Shown: piece after piece, positions 18,576 through 61,391 of the stretch | How positions within the stretch are numbered: the first letter of the stretch is position 1 | How the letters are laid out: every line of letters starts with the position of its first letter | DNA from: Olegusella massiliensis | GTDB taxonomy: Bacteria; Actinomycetota; Coriobacteriia; Coriobacteriales; Atopobiaceae | DNA: 64,000 nt | Assembly: GCF_900078545.1 (NCBI RefSeq) | Contig: NZ_FLLS01000002.1 | Coordinates: forward strand, 930,001 to 994,000 | Direction: 5' to 3' | Position numbers and translations under genes: made by a program | The notes under the pieces: generated by a model | Seen by the model: the letters and a program-made list of their open reading frames with translations, nothing else | Database searches by the model: none | What the model was told of the DNA's origin: nothing

Positions 18576-18688
<113 letters not shown>

Positions 18689-19606: not shown

Positions 19607-20401
19607 CTACGACAAAAGCATGCGGTCGTTTGCGAGCTCGCCTCCTGAGACTTCTTCAAATTTTTGAAGCAGATCTTGTACATGTAACTGCTGTTTTTCT
19701 TCGTCTCGGACGTCGAAAATGACATGACCCTCATGCATCATAATAAGACGGTTGCCCAAGCGAATGGCATCGTTCATATTGTGCGTAACCATGAGCGTAG
19801 TCAGTTTGTACTCTCCTACGAGTTTCTTAGTTAAATCCAATACTTTTGAAGCAGTCTTAGGGTCAAGAGCAGCGGTGTGCTCGTCTAAAAGTAACAGCTT
19901 TGGCTTTTTGAGTACTGCCATCAACAGGGTAAGCGCTTGACGTTGTCCACCAGAGAGTAGTCCCACCTTGGAGGTCATGCGCCCTTCAAGACCAAGGTCT
20001 AGCTGGGCCAGACGCTCATGGTAAAGAGCGTGTTCTTTTTTGCTGATACCCCATCTGAGCCCACGGCTTGCTCCACGTCGTGCCGCAAGAGAAAGATTCT
20101 CAATGATTTGCATGTCAGCGGCAGTGCCTCGCATAGGATCTTGAAAAACGCGGCCGAGATTGACCGCGCGTTTGTGTTCGCGTAGTCGACTGATATCCTG
20201 TCCGTCCAAGATGACCTGGCCGCCATCGAGGGGAAAGACGCCTGCAATACTATTGAGTAGGGTGGACTTGCCAGCTCCGTTGCCGCCTATGACTGTGACA
20301 AAGTCGCCAGGATTGAGGTGGAGATTTACATTAATGAGTGCTGGCTTCTCGTTAACGGTACCTTTGTTGAAGGTCTTACTGACGTTTTTAAGTACGAGCA
20401 T
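19607..20401 (-). CDS. ABC transporter ATP-binding protein, TrpZ-type
   Basis: The 264-residue ATPase has Walker A GGNGAGKST, signature LSGGQRQA, and Walker B LLLLDEHTAALDPKT. The DEHTAALDP variant is typical of ATPases paired with PF04392-type binding proteins. The ATG at 20401 is chosen: AGGAGG lies seven bases upstream, and the start overlaps the permease stop as TAATG. It drives import of the ligand bound by the protein at 21429-22412. Confidence 0.93.
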   Translation of the reverse strand: MLVLKNVSKTFNKGTVNEKPALINVNLHLNPGDFVTVIGGNGAGKSTLLNSIAGVFPLDGGQVILDGQDISRLREHKRAVNLGRVFQDPMRGTAADMQIIENLSLAARRGASRGLRWGISKKEHALYHERLAQLDLGLEGRMTSKVGLLSGGQRQALTLLMAVLKKPKLLLLDEHTAALDPKTASKVLDLTKKLVGEYKLTTLMVTHNMNDAIRLGNRLIMMHEGHVIFDVRDEEKQQLHVQDLLQKFEEVSGGELANDRMLLS

Positions 20402-21318
20402 TAGCACTCACCTCCTTTGGCATAAATGCGGTGCTGTTGATTGCGCTCCAAGACCACGGGTACGACTAGCGCAAGTGCAACAATAGCTGCAGATAGCAGT
20501 TTCATATCATTGGCGTCCATGCCCATCTGCAACACAATTGCACGAATGAGGAAATACACGACAGAACCTATAACGGCTGACGTGAGACGGCTGCCAAAGG
20601 CCTGTAATTTATTGGGGATGAGACGCCCAAGCACTTCGCCAATGACAATAGCGGCAAGACCAATAACGATGGCGCCTGTTCCCATGCCAATGTCAGCATA
20701 CTTTTGGCTTTGACAAATGAGTGCGCCCGACAGACCCACAAAACCGTTGGAAAGCATAAGGGCAAAAAGCTTAGTGATACGTACATCTATGCCCAATGCG
20801 CGGCACATATCTTCGTTTTGGCCAGTAGCACGCATCGCCGAACCAATTTCAGTACCAAAAAACCAGTAGAGAAATACGATTGATAAAACAGCAACAACAA
20901 TTCCCACAACAAGCGTTGCATTATCGCGCGAAATATGCAAAAGGGATGCGGTACGAGTAAAAACAGTGTCGACGTTTAAGAGTGGCGTGTTTGATTTGCC
21001 CATGACACGTAAATTGACAGACCAAAGCGCAATCTGAGTCAGAATTCCCGCCAAAATCGCTGGAATATCAAAGAGGGTGTGGAGCAGTCCGGTAACTGCT
21101 CCTGCGGCAACGCCTGCGAGCATACCCAGTAGTACTGCGACAAGCGGGTCGAGGCCCATCCCAACTGAACAAACTGCTGCAACACAGCCTCCCAATGCAA
21201 AGCTGCCGTCAACGGTGAGGTCTGCGATATCGAGCATTTTGTAAGTGATGAAGACTCCGAGTACCATCACACCCCAGAGGATACTCTGAGATATTGCTCC
21301 CGAAAGCGCTAATAGCAT
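20401..21318 (-). CDS. ABC transporter permease, TrpY-type (branched-chain amino acid permease family)
   Basis: The 305-residue membrane protein has about eight to nine helices and the family motif DIADLTVDGSFALGG near residue 35, plus a GLAAIVIGEVLGR loop near residue 220. It forms a complete importer with the adjacent ATPase and binding protein. Genes of this set are often annotated as tryptophan or aromatic/branched-chain amino acid uptake (TrpXYZ). The true ligand is not evident here. Confidence 0.92.
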   Translation of the reverse strand: MLLALSGAISQSILWGVMVLGVFITYKMLDIADLTVDGSFALGGCVAAVCSVGMGLDPLVAVLLGMLAGVAAGAVTGLLHTLFDIPAILAGILTQIALWSVNLRVMGKSNTPLLNVDTVFTRTASLLHISRDNATLVVGIVVAVLSIVFLYWFFGTEIGSAMRATGQNEDMCRALGIDVRITKLFALMLSNGFVGLSGALICQSQKYADIGMGTGAIVIGLAAIVIGEVLGRLIPNKLQAFGSRLTSAVIGSVVYFLIRAIVLQMGMDANDMKLLSAAIVALALVVPVVLERNQQHRIYAKGGEC

Positions 21319-21428
21319 GTACTTCTCCCCAACATAGTCTTTTGCCGCCAGCTCAAAGCCCGCGCCGCGTTTGTTGACAATCGTGAGTGGGCAATCTTAA
21401 GAGTATCCATTATAAGAAAAGTGTGGTC

Positions 21429-22412
21429 CTAGGCATCCAATTTTGAGAGATCAATGCCGAGAGCTTCAGCAATCTCTTTGTTAGTTGTCAAGGTGCACTC
21501 GGAAACATCGAGATGTTCGATAGGCATCTCGGCGGGGCTTGCTTCTCCGTTGAGAATTTTGACAGCCATCTCGCCGGCTTTGTAACCCAATTTCTCGTAA
21601 TCAATGCCGTAGGTGGCCAGGCCGCCGTTTTCCACCATCCCGCTTGCACCACAAATAATGGGGAGTTTGTGCTCGGTTGCAACCATAGAAACGGTTTGCA
21701 TGCCTGATGCGATGGTGTTATCTGTGGGCGCGTAGATAACGTCTACCACACCAATCATTGATTCAACAACCTGTTGAATCTCATTAGAGCTTGAGACTGT
21801 GTAGTCTTCGGCATCTAAATTGCGTGTGCGAGCAGCATCGTGAGCCATTTTGGCTTGTACGCTCGAGTTGGACTCTGCAGTGCAGTAAAGAATTCCTACC
21901 TTCTTGGCATCGGGCAGGAGTTTTTGCAGCAGATCAAATTGTTTATCAACGGGTGTGAGATCAGAGGTGCCTGTGACATTTCCTCCCGGAGCATCATTGT
22001 CAGCCACGAGCCCCGAGGCAGCGTAGTCGGTAATGGCAGTGCCGACGATGGGAATATCTGTTGTGGCACCTGCTGCAGCCTGGCAAGCAGGCGTTGCTAT
22101 GGCAAGAATGAGATCGTTGCCTTCGTTGACTAACTTTGAGGCGATAGTTTGGCAGGCAGATTGGTCATTTTGAGCATTTTGCTGGTCAATGGTGTAGTTG
22201 ATACCCGAATCATCGAGCGCTTTGACAAAGCCCTTGTTTGCAGCGTCAAGTGCCGCATGCTCAGTTAGTTGTAATACGCCAATCTTGAATTTTCCATCGC
22301 CAGAGGAAGAACCGCCCGAGCTAGTCTTAGAACAAGCAGAAAGTCCAAAGGCAGCTAATCCCATGCCCCCCAATATGCTCAATGCACGACGACGTGTGAT
22401 AGTATTTGACAT
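21429..22412 (-). CDS. ABC substrate-binding lipoprotein, TrpX-type (PF04392 family)
   Basis: The 327-residue lipoprotein starts at ATG 22412, preceded by AGGAGGAGCGCC; the frame extends further upstream without a ribosome binding site. The signal has twin arginines (TRRRALSILGG) and a lipobox LSAC near residue 25, so export may be Tat-dependent with a lipid anchor. The body has the two-lobed PF04392 pattern (VGILYCTAESNSSVQ, VDVIYAPTDNTIASGM, ATYGIDYEKLGYKAGEMA). It delivers ligand to the permease pair. No T-box or trp leader was recognised upstream. Confidence 0.92.
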   Translation of the reverse strand: MSNTITRRRALSILGGMGLAAFGLSACSKTSSGGSSSGDGKFKIGVLQLTEHAALDAANKGFVKALDDSGINYTIDQQNAQNDQSACQTIASKLVNEGNDLILAIATPACQAAAGATTDIPIVGTAITDYAASGLVADNDAPGGNVTGTSDLTPVDKQFDLLQKLLPDAKKVGILYCTAESNSSVQAKMAHDAARTRNLDAEDYTVSSSNEIQQVVESMIGVVDVIYAPTDNTIASGMQTVSMVATEHKLPIICGASGMVENGGLATYGIDYEKLGYKAGEMAVKILNGEASPAEMPIEHLDVSECTLTTNKEIAEALGIDLSKLDA

Positions 22413-22576
22413 GGCGCTCCTCCTCATAAGCTCCGCCACACAGTGTCGTATAGCGGTAATTTGTTTTTGTGTCACTTCTTGGGACAAGGGTACTAATACT
22501 ATCATCGCTGTATGTATCCTGTTGGGTGTCTTGCAACAACAATTGATTACAGAGTCGTAACCGGTAGGATAAAGAA

Positions 22577-25793: not shown

Positions 25794-25823
25794 GCAAAGC
25801 AGAGCGGAAGTTTGGTAGCTGAT

Positions 25824-27245
25824 ATGGAATTTGCACAATGGGTTGCGGAGTTGTCCGTGCGGACAAATAGGTCACTTGCAGGCTCACGCGTTTTTGTGAC
25901 TGGGGACGCTCTGACAGATGATCTGCGCGCAGCGTTTCAGAGTTGGGGATTGTTGCCAATTTTTCAACGTGAGCAAGCTGATTTTATCTGGAATGAGTTG
26001 CCCCAAAAGAAAGAGCTTACTGGTGCCGAAGCCATGGCACGCGCTGCAAAATACATGCCTGTTACCCGTGCGCTTATAGATCGTCTTGTGGCCAAGCAAA
26101 GCTTAGAGGGGCTGCGTATTGCAGTTTGTCTGGTACTCGAGCCCAAGACAAGTGTGCTGTTGCAAGAGCTTAAGCGTGCGGGCGCTGAGGTAGGGGTGTG
26201 TGCGCCTGCCGCAGAAGTTGACCAACGCGTGGCTGATGAGCTCGCCAGACGTGATGTGATAGTTGAGGCATGTGCTACCTGGACGCCCGAGCAAGATCAC
26301 GCAGCTGCGCTGCGTTTGCTTGATCGTCTGCGACCTAATTTGATTGTGGATGATGGGGGTAGTTTTGCGCGGCTATGCAAGCTAGAGCGTCCAGCGTTAT
26401 CTAGGCAGCTCATAGGTGTGGCAGAGGAGACAACCTCGGGCGTTCGTGCATTTGCAGCCATGGAAGCAGCGCGGGAGCTGTCCTGGCCTGTGGTTGCGGT
26501 TAACGACTCGCGCCTTAAGACCTGCTTTGATAATCGGCATGGTACAGGTGAAACCTGTGTGACAAGCATGCAGGCTCTGCTTGGATGGAACTGTTTTTCC
26601 AGGGCCGAGGTAGTGGTTATTGGCTATGGCCCTGTGGGGGAAGGGTTTGCACGGCGTATTTGTACGCTGGGGGCGGACGTCTGCATCGTGGATGGTGATC
26701 CCGCAGCTGCTTTGCGGGCACGTTTTGATGGCTTTAATGTTGCCGATATTGCAGAAGCATTTGCAGGTGCTGATATGGTTGTGTCTGCAACGGGTGTTCG
26801 CCATACCGTATCGATGGAGGAGATGAAGCTGCTACGAGATAAAACGATCCTCGCAGTGATAGGCGGCATTGCTCATGAGCTTGCCCTAGACGATCTGCCC
26901 GCCGATGCACTAGGCGATGCAGACACAAATGCCATTTGTGAGCTGCAAGTTCCCGATGGCCCAACACTCCGCCTGCTTGCCCATGGTGATGGGGTAAATT
27001 ACACCGCCGGTGGAGGCAATCCGATTGAGGTGATGGACCTGAGTTTGGCTGTGCAAGTGGCAGCGATAGCATATCTCGCAAAACATAAGGGAGAGCTTCC
27101 TGCCAAGCTGTTACGTCTTGGCAAGGATGATGAGAACCTTATAGCTCAGCTTGCGCTTGCTGTCCGAGGGGCTTCTGCACGACAAGTGGGGCAAAAGAGT
27201 GATACCGTGCCTGATTGGAAACTTACACGCTTTTCGGATGCCTAG
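25824..27245 (+). CDS. Divergent S-adenosylhomocysteine hydrolase paralog
   Basis: The 473-residue protein has the SAHH fold from end to end. The expected catalytic block is present: DDGGS (about 175), EETTSG (about 199), and NDSRLKTCFDN with the Lys, Asp and Asn. The NAD loop is GYGPVGEG near residue 267. Three substrate-pocket motifs differ from the normal family: the N-terminal HLEAKTA-type motif reads VLEPKTS, the GHFDVE block reads GGIAHELALDD, and GHPAE reads GNPIE near residue 399. The second SAHH here (28737-29999) keeps all of these. It is therefore probably active on a related thioether nucleoside. ATG 25824 is taken as start; TTG 25812 is less likely. Confidence 0.8.
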   Translation: MEFAQWVAELSVRTNRSLAGSRVFVTGDALTDDLRAAFQSWGLLPIFQREQADFIWNELPQKKELTGAEAMARAAKYMPVTRALIDRLVAKQSLEGLRIAVCLVLEPKTSVLLQELKRAGAEVGVCAPAAEVDQRVADELARRDVIVEACATWTPEQDHAAALRLLDRLRPNLIVDDGGSFARLCKLERPALSRQLIGVAEETTSGVRAFAAMEAARELSWPVVAVNDSRLKTCFDNRHGTGETCVTSMQALLGWNCFSRAEVVVIGYGPVGEGFARRICTLGADVCIVDGDPAAALRARFDGFNVADIAEAFAGADMVVSATGVRHTVSMEEMKLLRDKTILAVIGGIAHELALDDLPADALGDADTNAICELQVPDGPTLRLLAHGDGVNYTAGGGNPIEVMDLSLAVQVAAIAYLAKHKGELPAKLLRLGKDDENLIAQLALAVRGASARQVGQKSDTVPDWKLTRFSDA

Positions 27246-27312: not shown

Positions 27313-28656
27313 ATGCAGAGCCAACAAGTTATTGTGTATTCAGCTCCCCTGGTTGTACCTATATCGATGCCGGTTATCGTCGATGGTGCTGTAGCGGTAC
27401 GTGGGGAGCGAGTTTTGCATGTGGGCACACGCTCTTGGGTGCTTGAGGTGCTGCACGAAGAACTGGATGCACAGGCTCAGCAAGGGATGCTTGAGCGGCA
27501 TTTTGATGGCATGTTATTGCCTGGTCTTGTAAATGCTCATACGCATTTGCAGTACACGGGTATGTCTTCGGTGGGGCAAAAGATTTATGACAGTTTTCGC
27601 GCATGGGAGCTGGCTTTTGATGAGGTTTACGATGCGCCCGAAGAGAAGCCTTGGAAACATTGGGCATACGATGGTGCGCGTCAGCTCCTCGAATCGGGTG
27701 CAACGTCGGCAGCCGATGTGGTGTCTGATATCCAAGCAGTTGGTGCGCTTGGTAGTCACGGCATGCACGGTATTGCGTATTGGGAAGTTATGGATTGGGA
27801 AAATGAGGCTTGGTCGCGCGAGGGTGCACGCACGCTCATTAGTCAACTGGCAGAAGCTGGACGTAACCGAGATATTCGTTTGGGCATCAGCCCTCATGCA
27901 CCCTATTCCTTAGGTTCAGGACCCCTGCTTGACTTGCCTGATATCGCACGTGGCCTTGGCATGCGCTTACATATTCATTTGGGAGAAACTCCTGTTGAGG
28001 GTGGAGCTTTTCCCTCAAGGCTCTCAAATCTTACCTCGCATGCATGGAGTGATAAAAACTGGGACGGTTACCTCGCGCTCCATGCGGCTGGGTTTGAGGC
28101 AAGTGCAATCCAGTTTGTTGATCAGCTGGGGGTGCTAGGACCAGATGTGCATATTGCGCATGGGGTATATGCATCGCGTGAGGATAGACGTATTTTGCGG
28201 CAACGTGGTGTCAGTGTTGCTTTGTGTCCACGCTCTAATCGTGTGACCTGCACCATGCGTGATGCGCCTGTTGCTCGCTATCTTGAAGAAGGCAATCCTA
28301 TTGCAATTGGCACTGACTCCTTGTCGAGCTGTCCTTCCTTAGATGTTATGGATGATGCAGCTGAGGTCTATAGGCTTGCAGTTGAGCAGGGCTACGATCG
28401 CGATGATTTGTCACACCGCATTATTCGTGCGCTGACCTTGGGAGGGGCCGAGTCGATGGGGCTTAATTGTGGTCCCGATCGTGTTGGTCAGATTAATCCT
28501 GGCGCCCTTGCCGACCTCGCGTTCTTTGATATACCCATTGATGTCAGCACGCCTATGGGCGTTGAAGAAACGCTTGATTATTTTGTCCTCAAAGGTGCGG
28601 GTAGCTGTCGTGCAACGCTATTGTCTGGCAAGCTTGTCCACAATCGCGTCTGGTAG
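27313..28656 (+). CDS. Amidohydrolase of the nucleoside deaminase type (SAH/MTA/aminofutalosine-like)
   Basis: The 447-residue protein has the metal motif NAHTHL (His76, His78), HIHLGE, an IAHGVY strand, and the final metal ligand in IGTDSLSS. This is the layout of the AtzA/TrzN/SAH-deaminase branch of amidohydrolases, which remove the 6-amino group from adenine nucleosides such as S-adenosylhomocysteine, methylthioadenosine or aminofutalosine. ATG 27313 follows AAGGAGG by six bases. It lies 67 bases after the divergent SAHH paralog, as a cassette. The likely reaction is deamination of the thioether nucleoside before or after hydrolysis; the substrate is inferred. Confidence 0.82.
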   Translation: MQSQQVIVYSAPLVVPISMPVIVDGAVAVRGERVLHVGTRSWVLEVLHEELDAQAQQGMLERHFDGMLLPGLVNAHTHLQYTGMSSVGQKIYDSFRAWELAFDEVYDAPEEKPWKHWAYDGARQLLESGATSAADVVSDIQAVGALGSHGMHGIAYWEVMDWENEAWSREGARTLISQLAEAGRNRDIRLGISPHAPYSLGSGPLLDLPDIARGLGMRLHIHLGETPVEGGAFPSRLSNLTSHAWSDKNWDGYLALHAAGFEASAIQFVDQLGVLGPDVHIAHGVYASREDRRILRQRGVSVALCPRSNRVTCTMRDAPVARYLEEGNPIAIGTDSLSSCPSLDVMDDAAEVYRLAVEQGYDRDDLSHRIIRALTLGGAESMGLNCGPDRVGQINPGALADLAFFDIPIDVSTPMGVEETLDYFVLKGAGSCRATLLSGKLVHNRVW

Positions 28657-28736: not shown

Positions 28737-29999
28737 TTACACGTCGGAATCGTTGAGGTAGTGTTCTTGCTCGGGTGTAAGCACATCGATGTTCTTACCC
28801 ATAAAGGAGAGTTTTTTACGAGCAGTCTCCAAGTCAACGTCTGTGGGAACATCCATGAGCAGCTCATCAAACTCACCTTGATGTTCAACCAGATATTTTG
28901 CAGAAAGCGCTTGAATGGCAAAGGACATATCCATAATTTCTGCGGGGTGTCCATCACCGCAAGCAAGATTGACCAAGCGACCCTCACCAAGAACATAAAT
29001 CCAGACACCATTAGGCAGTTTGTAACCCATGATGTTTTCACGCATACGCTTGGATTCTACGGCAAGCTTGTGCAGGCCCTCCATGTCAACCTCGACATCA
29101 AAGTGCCCAGCATTGCACAGGATGGCACCCTCATGCATCAGAAGGAAATCTTCTTCGTCGATGACCTTGTTGCAGCCGGTAACCGTGATAAAGAAGTCAC
29201 CTAAAGGTGCGGCCTCTGCCATAGGCATCACATCAAAACCGTCCATCACCGCTTCAATTGCCTTGACAGGATCGATTTCGGTAACGATGACACGAGCTCC
29301 TAGACCTTTGGCGCGCATGGCAACACCCTTGCCACACCAGCCATAGCCTGCAACAACAGCGGTTTTGCCAGCAACAACAAGATTGGTAGTGCGGTCAATG
29401 CCATCCCACACCGACTGGCCTGTGCCATAGCGATTGTCAAAGAAGTGCTTCATCATGGCATTATTAACGCGCACCATAGGGAAGCGTAGCTTGCCCTCGC
29501 GATTCATAGCTTCTAGGCGGATGATTCCCGTTGTCGTTTCCTCGCAGCCACCAATGACATGAGGAATAAGTTTTTGCAGCTCTGGATCGGTATGCATGAG
29601 ATAAACCAAATCGCCACCATCATCGATGATGAGATCGGGACCAGCGGCGAGTACGGCGTGAGTACCAGTAGTATATTCTTCGGATGTTGCGCCATGGATG
29701 GCATGAACCTCAAGACCCTCATGTACTAATGCGGCAGCGACATCATCTTGGGTAGAGAGTGGATTGGAGCCCGTAACATACATTTCTGCTCCGCCAGCCG
29801 CGAGTACAAGGCAGAGATAGGCTGTCTTTGCTTCAAGATGAATGGACAGGGCAATTTTTTTGCCTGCAAATGGCTTGGTCTGCTCGAATTCTTCTTTCAG
29901 CATGGTAAGCAGAGGGCAATTGCGTCTTACCCAATCAATCTTGAGCAATCCAGAATCAGCAAGCTTAATGTCCCTGATAACACTTTTGTTGGCTGGCAT
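28737..29999 (-). CDS. ahcY: Adenosylhomocysteinase, archaeal/thermophile-type
   Basis: The 420-residue enzyme splits S-adenosylhomocysteine (or, in some relatives, S-inosylhomocysteine) to homocysteine plus nucleoside. All expected elements are visible: HLEAKTAYL near residue 56, DDGGD, EETTTG, the Lys-Asp-Asn catalytic helix (NAMMKHFFDN), NAD loop GYGWCGKG, GHFDVEVDM and GHPAEIMD. The GYGWCGKG loop and shorter length (no roughly 40-residue insertion) mark it as the archaeal/Thermotoga type. Start ATG has GGAGGATAGGT upstream. A deaminase gene is encoded upstream on the same strand (30057-31340). Confidence 0.94.
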   Translation of the reverse strand: MPANKSVIRDIKLADSGLLKIDWVRRNCPLLTMLKEEFEQTKPFAGKKIALSIHLEAKTAYLCLVLAAGGAEMYVTGSNPLSTQDDVAAALVHEGLEVHAIHGATSEEYTTGTHAVLAAGPDLIIDDGGDLVYLMHTDPELQKLIPHVIGGCEETTTGIIRLEAMNREGKLRFPMVRVNNAMMKHFFDNRYGTGQSVWDGIDRTTNLVVAGKTAVVAGYGWCGKGVAMRAKGLGARVIVTEIDPVKAIEAVMDGFDVMPMAEAAPLGDFFITVTGCNKVIDEEDFLLMHEGAILCNAGHFDVEVDMEGLHKLAVESKRMRENIMGYKLPNGVWIYVLGEGRLVNLACGDGHPAEIMDMSFAIQALSAKYLVEHQGEFDELLMDVPTDVDLETARKKLSFMGKNIDVLTPEQEHYLNDSDV

Positions 30000-30056: not shown

Positions 30057-31340
30057 CTAGAGGTTGAGACGATGACAAATACGCGTGATTTCTGCACGCA
30101 CTCGCTCTTCGTCAATAGTAAGTAATTCTCCGTGATCCATGACAAATTTACCATCAATCATGACGCTTTCTACCTCAGAACCGTTTGCCGAATAGGCGAG
30201 TGCAGCAGGAAGGTTAGTGGCAGGAATCATAGAGGGCAGATCGAGCCGCAACAATGCCAGGTCTGCTTTACGGCCGACAGTGATTTCGCCGCAGTTCAGC
30301 CTGAGTGCGCGGGCGCCATTGCTCGTTGCTGCGCGCAAGGTATCTGCTGCGGTGACGCAGGTGGAACTGTTATGGGTTCCCTTGTGTATCAAAGCAAATA
30401 GCCCCATTTCACGAAACATATTCTGTGCATTGTTGGAAGCAGGACCATCGGTGCCCAGGCATACATTTACCCCTGCTGCCATGAGTTCGGGCACTGGTGC
30501 AAAGCCATTGCCAAGTTTCATATTTGAAGCGGGATTGCTGACAACACTGACGTGCTTTTTTGCAAGAAGTCTGCGGTCGGAGGGGCTGACACGAATGCAG
30601 TGTGCCGCGATGCAGGGTACATCAAAAATGCCCGTGCCATCGACATATTCAACAGGCGAACAGCCATATTTTTCTTGGATGTTTTCAGTCTCAGTTTGGG
30701 ATTCGGCAACGTGGATATGGATACCCATTTGAGATTTTTGGGCCACCTCGGCAAGCATACGCAGGTAATCAGGACCACAAGAATAAGGAGCGTGGGGCCC
30801 CAACAAAAAGGAAAGTCTGTCGCAATCACGCCAATCCTTGCGTTCGCGGAGGGCTTCTGCCAAGCGACTATCATCAAGATTGTATTCGTTGCCTACAAGA
30901 CCTCGGCAGATGACGGCGCGCATACCAGTTTCGCTAACAGCGCGCGCAGTCTGATTAATATGCATCTGCATGTCATTAAAGCAGGTAGTGCCCGTACGAA
31001 TCATTTCTGCTTGACTTAAAAGCGATGCCCAGTAGGCATCGTTGGGTTCCATACGGTCTTCGATGGGCTGCACACCACCAAAGAGCCAATCGAAAAAAGG
31101 TAGGTCATCAGCTACGTTGCGCATCGGCGACATGTAGCTATGTGTATGCGCATTGATGAGACCGGGGATTATGAGACGATCGTGCGCGTCGATGGTAGTC
31201 TCTGCTATAAATCCAGCGGGCGCCTCATCGATGCCTACGATTAGCCCATCGTTGATATAAAGCGATTTTTGCTCCACGCAAAAGCCAGATTCTTTGCCCT
31301 TGTCAAGCAAAACTAGGCCATTTTGAATTTCAAATCCCAC
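30057..31340 (-). CDS. 5-methylthioadenosine/S-adenosylhomocysteine deaminase-type amidohydrolase
   Basis: The 427-residue protein starts at GTG 31340, after AAAGGATTGCTT; the frame runs 86 codons further upstream but that part has no homology or ribosome binding site. Metal motif NAHTHS (His65, His67), HIHVAES, IAAHCIR and CLGTDGPASNN all match the MTA/SAH deaminase group. It deaminates SAH or methylthioadenosine to the inosine derivative. Its gene lies 57 bases from ahcY, so SAH would be deaminated and then hydrolysed as S-inosylhomocysteine, as described for Methanocaldococcus jannaschii. Substrate preference is inferred from family. Confidence 0.9.
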   Translation of the reverse strand: MGFEIQNGLVLLDKGKESGFCVEQKSLYINDGLIVGIDEAPAGFIAETTIDAHDRLIIPGLINAHTHSYMSPMRNVADDLPFFDWLFGGVQPIEDRMEPNDAYWASLLSQAEMIRTGTTCFNDMQMHINQTARAVSETGMRAVICRGLVGNEYNLDDSRLAEALRERKDWRDCDRLSFLLGPHAPYSCGPDYLRMLAEVAQKSQMGIHIHVAESQTETENIQEKYGCSPVEYVDGTGIFDVPCIAAHCIRVSPSDRRLLAKKHVSVVSNPASNMKLGNGFAPVPELMAAGVNVCLGTDGPASNNAQNMFREMGLFALIHKGTHNSSTCVTAADTLRAATSNGARALRLNCGEITVGRKADLALLRLDLPSMIPATNLPAALAYSANGSEVESVMIDGKFVMDHGELLTIDEERVRAEITRICHRLNL

Positions 31341-31639
31341 AAGCAATCCTTTCGCAATTGAGCTGTTTTTAGTATAGCGAGGTGCTGAATGGGTGGTGGT
31401 GTTGCTTGGCTGGAGTGGACAGGTAGTGATGGGGAAGCTTTGGTGCTGCTTGGCAGGCATGACCTCATTACAGTGACAGAAAGGAATGTTACGTTTTTTG
31501 CCACTCATTTCTTGACTTAGCTCGCATACCAAGCGACAGATTGCTAGGATATTAGTGCTAGAGCTTTCGTAGGATGGCAGCTTTTGCTGCCATAACATAC
31601 TCGTAGTTGTTGCGAGCGCGTTGAGGAGGGACTACGCAA
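31341..31639. other. 299-bp divergent intergenic region
   Basis: Contains the promoters for the SAH-type deaminase (minus) and the amino acid importer (plus). I see no stable hairpin with a T-run and cannot assign boxes confidently. TTGAGGAGGGAC at about 31621-31632 is the ribosome binding site of the binding-protein gene. Confidence 0.5.
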
Positions 31640-32611
31640 ATGGCGAATCTTGATAGGCGTAACTTTTTGAAGGCATCAGTTATTACTGCTGGTGCAGGAA
31701 GCGCTATGGTTTTGGCCGCATGCTCAAATAAGACACCTCAGAATAGTGGCAGCGCTGCGGGTAGTGCTGCGGGTTCGGCGAGCAATGATGCTGCAAAGGC
31801 GGAGAAGGCTGCTGCTTTTAAGGCTTCTTATCCTGTTGCTACCACTACCGATGAGGCAAAGGCACTTGCCACTCACGAGGCGGGTAAGCTGACTATTGCC
31901 ACGGGTGAGCCTGCTTGGCCTCCCTATGTCATGGATGATGCCCCCGAGACGGGCGAGGGTTTTGAGGCTGCTGTTGCCTATGCCGTTGCAGCTCAGCTTG
32001 GCTTTGCTTATGACGATGTCGTTTGGGTGCGCACGAGCTTTGATAATGCAATTACTCCTGGCGATAAAGACTGGGATGTCAACATCCAGCAATTTGGCAT
32101 TACTGAAGAGCGTAAGGCTGCCGTAGACTTCTCTAGCCCTTATTTCACCCCGACCCAATCGGTGGTTGTGGATGCTGCTAAGGATCACGACAAATTTGCA
32201 AAAGCAACTTCGTTGTCTGAGCTTAAGGATGCTTCCATTGGTATGGATGCTTCTTCTACAGCTCTAGCTTGGACACAGGAGAAGATTGGTAATAATGTCC
32301 AACCTTTGGGCGATACTGTCGACTCTGCTTCTCAGCTCAACTTACACCAGATTGACGGCGTTGTGACGGATACCCCCACAGCTGTTTACATGGCAAATCC
32401 TGATAACGGCGAGCTTGATAATGCCAAGCTTATTGGTCAGATTCCTGGTTCGAAAGCAGAGCCTCTTGCCTTTATTCTGCCCAAGGGTTCCAAGCTTACC
32501 GCTCCTGTTACGGCCGCTGTTGATGCCCTGACCAAAGACGGCAAGATTGAAGAACTTACCAAGCAGTGGATGGCAGAGTACACCACTGAGATCCCTACGC
32601 TTTCTGAGTAA
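31640..32611 (+). CDS. Polar amino acid ABC transporter, substrate-binding lipoprotein
   Basis: The 323-residue protein has a Tat-like signal (LDRRNFLKASVITAG) with a lipobox LAAC near residue 28 and a serine/alanine-rich linker (about 36-60). The remainder is a family-3 periplasmic binding fold with the FEAAVAYAVA strand and NIQQFGITEERKAAVDFSSPYF, typical of polar amino acid binding. It feeds the permease and ATPase downstream. It is separated from them by a stable hairpin, which often raises binding-protein mRNA above that of the membrane parts. Confidence 0.93.
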   Translation: MANLDRRNFLKASVITAGAGSAMVLAACSNKTPQNSGSAAGSAAGSASNDAAKAEKAAAFKASYPVATTTDEAKALATHEAGKLTIATGEPAWPPYVMDDAPETGEGFEAAVAYAVAAQLGFAYDDVVWVRTSFDNAITPGDKDWDVNIQQFGITEERKAAVDFSSPYFTPTQSVVVDAAKDHDKFAKATSLSELKDASIGMDASSTALAWTQEKIGNNVQPLGDTVDSASQLNLHQIDGVVTDTPTAVYMANPDNGELDNAKLIGQIPGSKAEPLAFILPKGSKLTAPVTAAVDALTKDGKIEELTKQWMAEYTTEIPTLSE

Positions 32612-32624
32612 TACTCATATTTCG

Positions 32625-32656
32625 ACGGCAGGCGGACTATTCTTCCGTCCTGCCGT
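32625..32656 (+). promoter_or_regulatory. Intercistronic hairpin in the amino acid importer operon
   Basis: ACGGCAGGCGGA and TCCGTCCTGCCGT pair across an 8-base loop, followed by TGTTATT. It lies between the binding-protein and permease genes, and can act as a partial terminator or 3' stabiliser giving more binding protein than permease. Confidence 0.7.
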
Positions 32657-32756
32657 TGTTATTACGGCTCATTAACCCAGCCGCTCATTCTTTGCACAGG
32701 ACAAGAAAACCACCCGCTCTTGTGGGGGATTGTGATTTATGGAAAAGGTGGACAGG

Positions 32757-33620
32757 ATGTCAGACGACAAACCACTCGATACTGAAGTAAGCAGCATCGA
32801 GCAGGAGCGTGAGGCGTTCCGACGTCACCAGAGTATGCGTTCTGTAGTGGTGAGTTTGCTGAGCACAGTTGCTTTTGTTGTGGCTGTGGGTATGATTCTC
32901 AACGCATCTCCCGGTTGGCCGCGTGTGCGCGAGATGTTTTTCTCACCCGAATATTTTGCCGATTCGTTCCCCAAGGTGCTTGATGGCTTGTGGCTCAATA
33001 TGCGTGTGCTGGTTTATGCTCTTGCCGGCACAGCAGTGCTTGGTACCTTGTTGGCGGTTGTGCGCATTTCCAAATCGCCTGTTCTGTTCCCTTTGCGCGT
33101 GCTTGTGCGTGCCTATACAACGATTATGCGTGGCATTCCTATGCTGGTGGTGCTGTATCTAATCGGTTTTGGTATTCCTGGCCTCGGACTTTTTGGGCGC
33201 ATGCACTCAGCGATACTGGGTACTGTTGCAGTTATTTTGAGTTACTCCGCCTATATCGCCGAGGTATTACGCGCAGGCTTTGAAGATGTACACCCATCAC
33301 AGCGTGCCTCTGCTCGCTCATTGGGGTTGACTTCGGGTCAAACGGTACGTCTTGTTATCATCCCGCAAGCATTACGCAAGATTGCGCCCGCCCTGATGAA
33401 TGACTTTATCTCTATGCAAAAAGATGTGGGCTTGATTTCGACCTTGGGTGCGGTTGATGCAGTTCGTGCAGCACAGATTGCGGTATCACGTTCGTTTAAC
33501 TACACGCCTTATGTGGTTGCAAGCTTGCTTTTTATCCTCATGAGCATACCGTTCATTATTCTTAACGACTGGTACACCGCCCGCCTGCGCAAGCGTGAGC
33601 AGACGTCTGGCATGGTATAG
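32757..33620 (+). CDS. Polar amino acid ABC transporter, permease
   Basis: The 287-residue protein has about five membrane helices and the EAA-loop region SQRASARSLGLTSGQTVRLVIIPQALR typical of polar amino acid permeases. A hydrophilic N-terminus of about 30 residues precedes helix one. ATG 32757 follows AAAAGGTGGACAGG; ATG 32739 is the alternative and would add six residues. Cognate binding protein and ATPase flank it. Confidence 0.92.
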   Translation: MSDDKPLDTEVSSIEQEREAFRRHQSMRSVVVSLLSTVAFVVAVGMILNASPGWPRVREMFFSPEYFADSFPKVLDGLWLNMRVLVYALAGTAVLGTLLAVVRISKSPVLFPLRVLVRAYTTIMRGIPMLVVLYLIGFGIPGLGLFGRMHSAILGTVAVILSYSAYIAEVLRAGFEDVHPSQRASARSLGLTSGQTVRLVIIPQALRKIAPALMNDFISMQKDVGLISTLGAVDAVRAAQIAVSRSFNYTPYVVASLLFILMSIPFIILNDWYTARLRKREQTSGMV

Positions 33621-33630
33621 GGGAGCTTTC

Positions 33631-34425
33631 GTGGCAGATTTGATTGCTAGTGAAGACTATAGCAGGCAGGAACAGCGCGTAGTTGGTGAGCCAGTCCTGC
33701 GCATTGACGGTGTGGTCAAACGCTTTGGTGACAATGTTGTGCTCAACCATATTTCTTTTGATGTACGCAAACACGAGACAGTGGCAGTGTTAGGGCCTTC
33801 GGGCTCAGGCAAGTCAACCTTGATGAAGTGTGTCAACCTTCTCGAGCAGGTCAATGATGGGCAAATTTGGCTGGGAGATACCGACATTACCAATCCGCGC
33901 ATAGATCAAGATAAGACCCGCGCACGCATAGGTGTGGTCTTCCAGCAATTCAATCTCTTCCCACACATGCGCGTTATTGACAATGTCACTCTGGCTGCCC
34001 GTAAAGTGTTTGGTTGGAATCGTGCACGTGCCGAGGACCGCGCGATGGAACTGCTCAAGCGCATTGGCATGGATGTCAAGTCTCGCGAATTTCCTGATCG
34101 TCTTTCTGGTGGTCAACAACAGCGTGTAGCCATTGCACGTGCGCTCATGATGGAGCCTGAACTACTGCTACTAGACGAGATCACCTCTGCTCTTGACCCG
34201 TTGCTCGTCGGCGAAGTGCTCGAAATGGTCGAGGAGCTCAAAAATCAAGGTGCTACGATTTTGATGGCAACACATGAGATGGGCTTTGCTCATCGCGCGG
34301 CTGATCGTATCGTGTTGCTTCGCCGTGGCAAGGTGGCCGAAAACGGTACACCTCACGACGTTATGGATAATCCAAGCGACCCTGAAACCCGTGCATTTTT
34401 CCATTCGTATCGTGATTGGAATTAA
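33631..34425 (+). CDS. Polar amino acid ABC transporter, ATP-binding protein
   Basis: The 264-residue ATPase has Walker A GPSGSGKST, signature LSGGQQQR, and Walker B LLLLDEITSALDP, all intact. GTG 33631 is the start: GGGGAG precedes it by five bases and an in-frame ATG upstream overlaps the permease gene. It completes the binding-protein/permease/ATPase importer of 31640-34425. Confidence 0.94.
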   Translation: MADLIASEDYSRQEQRVVGEPVLRIDGVVKRFGDNVVLNHISFDVRKHETVAVLGPSGSGKSTLMKCVNLLEQVNDGQIWLGDTDITNPRIDQDKTRARIGVVFQQFNLFPHMRVIDNVTLAARKVFGWNRARAEDRAMELLKRIGMDVKSREFPDRLSGGQQQRVAIARALMMEPELLLLDEITSALDPLLVGEVLEMVEELKNQGATILMATHEMGFAHRAADRIVLLRRGKVAENGTPHDVMDNPSDPETRAFFHSYRDWN

Positions 34426-38780: not shown

Positions 38781-38857
<77 letters not shown>

Positions 38858-61253: not shown

Positions 61254-61355
61254 GTGAGTCTCCTGGACTTTGCTTGGCGTTTTTGCTTCACACGTGTTAT
61301 TATCGCAAAGCTTGTCACAAACGGTAGGTTATGTTTAGATAAGCGCACACCACTT

Positions 61356-61374
61356 GCCTGGTCGGAAACCAGGC
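61356..61374 (+). promoter_or_regulatory. Stem-loop in the L31 leader
   Basis: GCCTGGT pairs with ACCAGGC around CGGAA, 18 bases before the start codon. The position suits autogenous control of ribosomal-protein translation, but the function is unproven. Confidence 0.4.
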
Positions 61375-61391
61375 CTACGTTAGGAGCTGTC

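Follow-up and report, generated by a model that had tools for sequence, protein, structure and literature searches.

PAR, as we call the His-less SAHH paralog encoded at 25824-27245 (+) in Olegusella massiliensis, is a widespread, uncharacterised sister of SAH hydrolase (SAHH) in an oral-type bacterium. On alignment it appears to keep base reading and 3′ redox chemistry while its 5′ acid/base chemistry is rewritten, since His55 and His301 are lost and the base and redox residues are invariant. Databases name PAR-type proteins adenosylhomocysteinase despite the missing catalytic histidines, and in Leucobacter-like genomes, where PAR is the sole SAHH-family protein found, this label would insert SAH hydrolysis into metabolic models. 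The substrate question is directly testable thanks to the accompanying set of deaminase, transporter and hydrolase.

Fold of PAR and its gene neighbourhood

The sequence-only reading had called this ORF an SAHH paralog, and profiles and fold bear it out. PAR (473 aa; an alternative upstream TTG start is possible at 25812) exceeds the Pfam cut-offs for AdoHcyase (81.5 bits) and AdoHcyase_NAD (78.1 bits) and passes NCBIfam NF004009 ("adenosylhomocysteinase"; 560 bits, cut-off 485), a cut-off exceeded by the Olegusella genome alone among 396 sampled genomes of the phylum. It falls short of TIGR00936 (ahcY; 254 bits, cut-off 497.6). Among solved structures, P. furiosus SAHH 7r37 is the nearest in sequence (4e-61), and it is also the best PDB match (Z 49.3, 2.1 Å rmsd over 403 residues) to an AlphaFold2 (AF2) model built from 56 aligned relatives (mean pLDDT 94.5) that has the three-domain SAHH fold. 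Residues 1-63 (25824-26012) fall beyond the range aligned to 7r37 and form an extra, confidently modelled domain, with homologues in further Atopobiaceae and, it appears, in Leucobacter. Given the profile matches and the superposition on 7r37, PAR is a genuine SAHH-fold paralog carrying an additional N-terminal domain. Its C-terminus (VPDWKLTRFSDA; VPDWRVTRY in relatives) loosely resembles the KPxxYRY tail of mesophilic SAHHs, a type of tail missing from the neighbouring SIHH.

The following genes lie at the locus, within the window (the whole 64,000-nucleotide stretch that was analysed):

25824-27245, forward strand: PAR, the His-less SAHH paralog (profiles, alignment, AF2 model)
27313-28656, forward strand: AMD1, an amidohydrolase of cog0402 type, downstream of PAR (profiles, alignment)
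28737-29999, reverse strand: SIHH, a His-intact archaeal-type SAHH with HLEAKT (HxExK type), convergent to PAR-AMD1
30057-31598, reverse strand: AMD2, an SAH/MTA deaminase-like amidohydrolase of TM0936/DadD type (1p1m match, 4e-74)
31640-32611, forward strand: substrate-binding lipoprotein (SBP) of a polar-amino-acid-type ABC importer, keeping an Arg typical of carboxylate binding
32739-33620, forward strand: ABC permease (HEQRo type) of the same importer
33595-34425, forward strand: ABC ATPase of the same importer

AMD1 probably starts at ATG 27313, which is preceded by AAGGAGG (the ORF-list start is GTG 27283), and its nearest full-length NCBIfam model is the aminofutalosine deaminase family, with a score below the cut-off. 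AMD2, whose translation probably starts ~80 aa into the ORF, has T. maritima TM0936 as its best match. R136 and R148 of TM0936, which from the TM0936-SIH structure we take to be the SAH carboxylate-binding arginines, are both present in AMD2, and in the family alignment both equivalents are missing from AMD1. The importer spans 31640-34425, beyond AMD2. SIHH, ~1.5 kb from PAR, matches 7r3a best among PDB sequences (8e-151), a chain that bears the label S-inosyl-L-homocysteine hydrolase, and by sequence it is assigned to the S-inosylhomocysteine hydrolase type because its HLEAKT fits the HxExK motif rule (PMC10978960). Searches for known RNA switches at the locus and for promoter-like sites found neither. 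Upstream of PAR lies an unrelated second ABC importer set (ATPase, permease and lipoprotein; 19607-22505, reverse strand), and the window also holds, on the forward strand, a small SRP RNA (18586-18681), a tRNA gene (38781-38854) and an L31-Coriobacteria ribosomal leader (61355-61386).

Active-site residues of PAR and its clade

In human SAHH, whose numbering is used here for positions 55, 57, 59, 130, 131, 156, 157, 186, 190, 191, 301 and 353, HLEAKT begins with His55, GHFDVE contains His301 and GHP contains His353. The corresponding PAR residues are V104-L-E106-P-K108-T, D176/D177, E201/E202, K232 (equivalent to Lys186), D236, N237, G348 and N399, and the NAD loop is GYGPVGEG; V104 replaces His55, G348 replaces His301 and N399 replaces His353. 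The VLEPKT, GNP and GYGPVGEG motifs remarked on in the sequence-only reading are thus all present, and the Asp/Glu/Lys/Asp/Asn set is retained in the alignment as it had stated. Its change of GHFDVE to IAHELALDD holds in that the motif is altered, but the aligned segment is G-G-I-A-H-E, which puts Gly348 in place of His301, and IAHELALDD begins one residue late.

His55 is, by crystallography, the general base for water; Asp131 deals with the proton at C4′, the intermediate is stabilised by His301, which also touches the 5′-OH/water, Thr157/Lys186 hold the 3′-OH, Glu156/Asp190 hold the 2′-OH, and the His353-adenine contact is through the main chain only (PMC4647836). His55 equivalents donate a proton to the departing homocysteine, and His301-Phe302 form the gate of the Hcy channel (PMC13406329). 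Enzymes that prefer S-inosylhomocysteine are recognisable by the Glu and Lys of HxExK, which contact N1 and O6 of hypoxanthine (PMC10978960). Mapped onto these roles, the losses in PAR are predicted to be those of the 5′-side acid/base and gate histidines (His55, His301) plus a hinge residue (His353). The earlier proposal, that the adenine and ribose contacts are affected and the chemistry is spared, has to be turned around: E57/K59 and E156/T157/K186/D190 are invariant, and His55/His301 are lost. Nor need GHP to GNP alter base recognition, because His353 contacts adenine via the main chain only.

Relatives were gathered by scanning 84,980 species genomes and through targeted genome searches. 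In a midpoint-rooted tree of 104 sequences, the PAR clade (clade A; SH-aLRT 100) comprises 39 sequences from five bacterial classes and no His-intact types. His is absent at 55, 301 and 353 in 39/39 members: position 55 is V in 29, I in 6, F in 2, L in 1 and T in 1, position 301 is G in 36, M in 2 and A in 1, and position 353 is always N. Nine positions (E57, K59, D130, D131, E156, T157, K186, D190 and N191) are invariant in 39/39, PAR included, and the NAD-binding GxGxxG is likewise kept in every member, alongside the redox residues K186, D190, N191, T157 and E156 and the C4′ acid/base D131. Hence the Glu and Lys of HxExK occur in all 39 members and its His in none; all three His occur in each of the 38 SAHH/SIHH-type sequences of the alignment. 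At S83/Q85 of SAHH, 28 of the 39 members have acidic E/D, which is missing from the PAR subclade with tandem SIHH. PAR and its orthologue in Atopobium sp. oral taxon 810 differ with dS 0.35 and dN 0.061 (ratio ~0.17), which points to purifying selection. That ratio, with the nine invariant positions and the absence of three His in 39/39, argues that the clade is a conserved paralog family, and loss of three His at identical positions in every member looks far from chance.

Other branches of the tree are also altered. Clade B (L035, L045, L051, L108; Providencia, Ruegeria, Paenibacillus and others) keeps His55 and has D131N, D190E and H353N, and a Vibrio plasmid protein similar to it has D at 353. 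Neighbours of clade B genes include nucleoside symporters, BMP-type nucleoside importers, PNP, nucleoside hydrolase, adenosine deaminase and ribokinase, and clade B is likely a nucleoside-catabolic enzyme annotated adenosylhomocysteinase. Clade D, an actinobacterial group including Rubrobacter (L057, L059-L062, L064-L067, L075, L083, L107), has P/A at 55, DDR for DDG and G/A at 301, and keeps His353. Since further His-altered branches exist, the one name used in databases probably understates the functional range of the SAHH superfamily.

The PAR module and SAH recycling across genomes

Neighbourhood genes were assigned by mapping window proteins onto the clade loci. AMD1 lies ≤6.5 kb from PAR in 36/39 loci (one of the three loci lacking it sits on a 6.5-kb contig), a PAAT importer is near PAR in 29/39, and a second SAHH-family gene in 11/39; some PAR loci carry a tandem His-intact SIHH. 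Leucobacter, Canibacter, Mycetocola and Curtobacterium arrange the genes as PAR-AMD1-(cupin in some)-SBP-permease-ATPase. An Acidimicrobiales MAG carries SBP-permease-ATPase-SIHH2-PAR-AMD1 as a head-to-tail series whose gene ends overlap or abut. The cluster seen in Rhizobiales and Roseateles combines a LacI gene with SIHH2, PAR, an importer of carbohydrate type and AMD1, and a RihC-like nucleoside hydrolase is encoded close by; L019, L021 and L106 have such a hydrolase close to their tandem SIHH-PAR operon. Ten genomes have a Cupin_5/DUF985 gene after AMD1 (e.g., L098:6641-7150(-) and L010:10681-11178(+)); no cupin gene adjoins PAR in Leucobacter or in the Olegusella window. To our knowledge Cupin_5 (DUF985) has no known function; the DUF985 structure 3LZZ holds GDP. 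An MTAN-like paralog is found near AMD1 in three Atopobiaceae, and in L032 and L103 a single operon holds AMD1 together with a tandem SIHH. SBP orthologues adjoin SIHH-AMD2 in one Atopobiaceae genome (L102) and PAR-AMD1 in L097 and L098, and the three group together (99/98). Because orthologous SBPs sit beside either enzyme pair, PAR-AMD1 and SIHH-AMD2 probably serve one class of imported compound.

SAH recycling was assessed genome-wide, family by family. In Olegusella, metK is present, and family searches of the genome found no LuxS and only a sub-cut-off match for MTAN. With LuxS and a confident MTAN both wanting, SIHH (28737-29999) and AMD2 are probably its SAH route, which would make PAR an extra. 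An SIHH with a TM0936-type deaminase in an actinobacterium would place the archaeal/Thermotoga deamination route outside the groups of its original description. Elsewhere, PAR is the sole SAHH-family protein beside MTAN and LuxS in four relatives; it lacks a His-intact SAHH-family partner in four Atopobiaceae and several actinobacteria. In Leucobacter, Canibacter, Pauljensenia and one Propionibacteriaceae MAG no other SAHH-family protein was found, whereas Curtobacterium and Mycetocola have PAR together with canonical AhcY. Its backgrounds thus comprise MTAN and LuxS, SIHH and AMD2, canonical AhcY, or no other SAHH-family protein, which argues that PAR is not tied to housekeeping SAH recycling.

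Possible function and relation to known enzymes

The earlier suggestion of a substrate other than SAH probably applies to PAR: a deaminase and an importer travel with it, suggesting degradation of some other imported nucleoside, and an inosine-type base is likely because the Glu and Lys of HxExK are kept and the deaminase gene is adjacent. We tentatively read PAR as a 3′-redox/elimination enzyme cleaving a 5′-substituted inosine other than S-inosylhomocysteine (SIH), to which we give somewhat less than an even chance. The ABC importer would bring in a carboxylate-bearing 5′-substituted adenosine, and AMD1 would deaminate its base to hypoxanthine (a 6-oxopurine). The bound NAD+ of PAR would then oxidise the 3′-OH of the deaminated nucleoside, after which PAR would take the C4′ proton and expel the 5′ substituent by SAHH-like β-elimination, the leaving group being one that needs no protonation; SAH would be handled by the neighbouring His-intact SIHH-AMD2 pair. 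A sulfonium departs as a neutral thioether with no proton required. For this reason, and because removal of three His and, in 28 of 39 members, E/D for S83/Q85 would suit a cation, the favoured identity, itself rather doubtful, is the sulfonium S-inosylmethionine (deaminated S-adenosylmethionine), which PAR would cleave to methionine and inosine. The RihC-like hydrolase near SIHH-PAR operons is consistent with a ribonucleoside product. Speculatively, and with about as much doubt, a branch of the SAHH superfamily may use NAD/3′-keto chemistry lacking the acid/base His to split S-inosyl sulfonium compounds (SAM salvage) or to free didehydronucleosides, in an undescribed scavenging route. If true, the PAR family would define a pathway for salvage of imported nucleosides (importer, deaminase, His-less SAHH) and show the reach of NAD-assisted elimination chemistry. 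A literature search, with subscription journals mostly outside it, found nothing relevant on a PAR-type paralog or a SAM/SAH importer.

Several findings count against the proposed reading. No candidate water activator replacing His55/His301 was identified, E83/D85 are missing in the tandem-SIHH subclade, and the carbohydrate-type importer of the Rhizobiales/Roseateles operons gives no hint of an amino-acid nucleoside. In the operons that hold both AMD1 and a tandem SIHH, one deaminase would need to supply both hydrolases; AMD1 may act on a different base or substituent. Aminofutalosine was considered as a PAR substrate, given the resemblance of AMD1 to that deaminase family, and was dropped: futalosine has no C5′ leaving group for an SAHH-type elimination. 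The idea of an SIHH-PAR heteromer was lowered, as PAR often occurs without SIHH.

Other explanations start from the same residues. PAR could be another SIH hydrolase, with AMD1 deaminating external or internal SAH and other residues replacing His in the hydrolysis of SIH. The invariant hypoxanthine-motif E57/K59, the known pairing of a deaminase with SIHH (PMC10978960) and the status of PAR as sole SAHH-family protein found in Leucobacter, Canibacter, Pauljensenia and the Propionibacteriaceae MAG speak for this. We nonetheless consider it unlikely, given that each of the 38 SAHH/SIHH-type sequences has His55 and His301 and no clade A member has either, that Olegusella already has a full HxExK SIHH and an Arg-bearing SAH deaminase, that AMD1 is missing the two arginines used to recognise the Hcy carboxylate, and that PAR co-occurs with MTAN/LuxS. 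Loss of the water-holding His55/His301 with retention of the oxidation and C4′ residues would suit a lyase that eliminates the 5′ group and re-reduces C3′ with no water added, releasing 4′,5′-didehydro-5′-deoxyinosine for a His-intact SIHH/SAHH, or for a nucleosidase and the cupin. Such a scheme would accommodate the tandem SIHH-PAR pairs with overlapping ends, the cupin after AMD1 in ten genomes, the MTAN-like paralog near AMD1 in three Atopobiaceae and the binding of GDP, a 6-oxopurine nucleotide, by 3LZZ. It is made rather improbable by the four Atopobiaceae and several actinobacteria that have no His-intact partner and by the lack of a cupin beside PAR in Leucobacter and the Olegusella window; moreover, we know of no didehydronucleoside that occurs there as a free metabolite.

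The invariance of the redox residues (39/39), which a pseudoenzyme would not require, argues against PAR being a non-catalytic NAD/nucleoside-binding subunit or sensor, for example a partner of the tandem SIHH. It likewise favours catalysis over the redox-linked binding protein that the sequence-only reading had offered as an alternative. The loss of three active-site histidines and the overlap of SIHH and PAR genes in some operons fit that role, but PAR is frequently found without SIHH, and we regard the role as quite improbable. Least probable, with a very small chance, is an NAD-dependent nucleosidase in which 3′-oxidation is followed by loss of the base at C1′ rather than of the 5′ group. 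SAHHs do release free base as a side product (PMC10978960), PAR has lost the 5′ machinery and retained the 3′ machinery, and the related clade B is found in nucleoside-uptake operons. However, several PAR loci already have nucleoside hydrolase or MTAN-like genes, and the invariant D131 of clade A, as the acid/base for C4′, fits C4′ and not C2′ chemistry.

Among known systems, SAHH (AhcY; human, P. furiosus 7r37) shares with PAR the fold, the NAD loop and D131/E156/T157/K186/D190/N191, whereas PAR has V, G and N for His55, His301 and His353, a 63-residue N-terminal extra and a TIGR00936 score of 254 against 497.6. The SIHH enzymes (MjSIHH, MmaSAHH 7r3a; HxExK) resemble PAR in the hypoxanthine-reading Glu and Lys and in having a deaminase partner; PAR differs from them in lacking the catalytic His, in being importer-linked and in having a partner deaminase of another subtype that is without the Hcy-carboxylate arginines. 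The TM0936/DadD SAH-MTA deaminase is matched by AMD2 at 4e-74 with both arginines, while AMD1, of the same amidohydrolase superfamily, has no counterparts of R136/R148 and lies closer to enzymes of the DR0824/aminofutalosine deaminase type.
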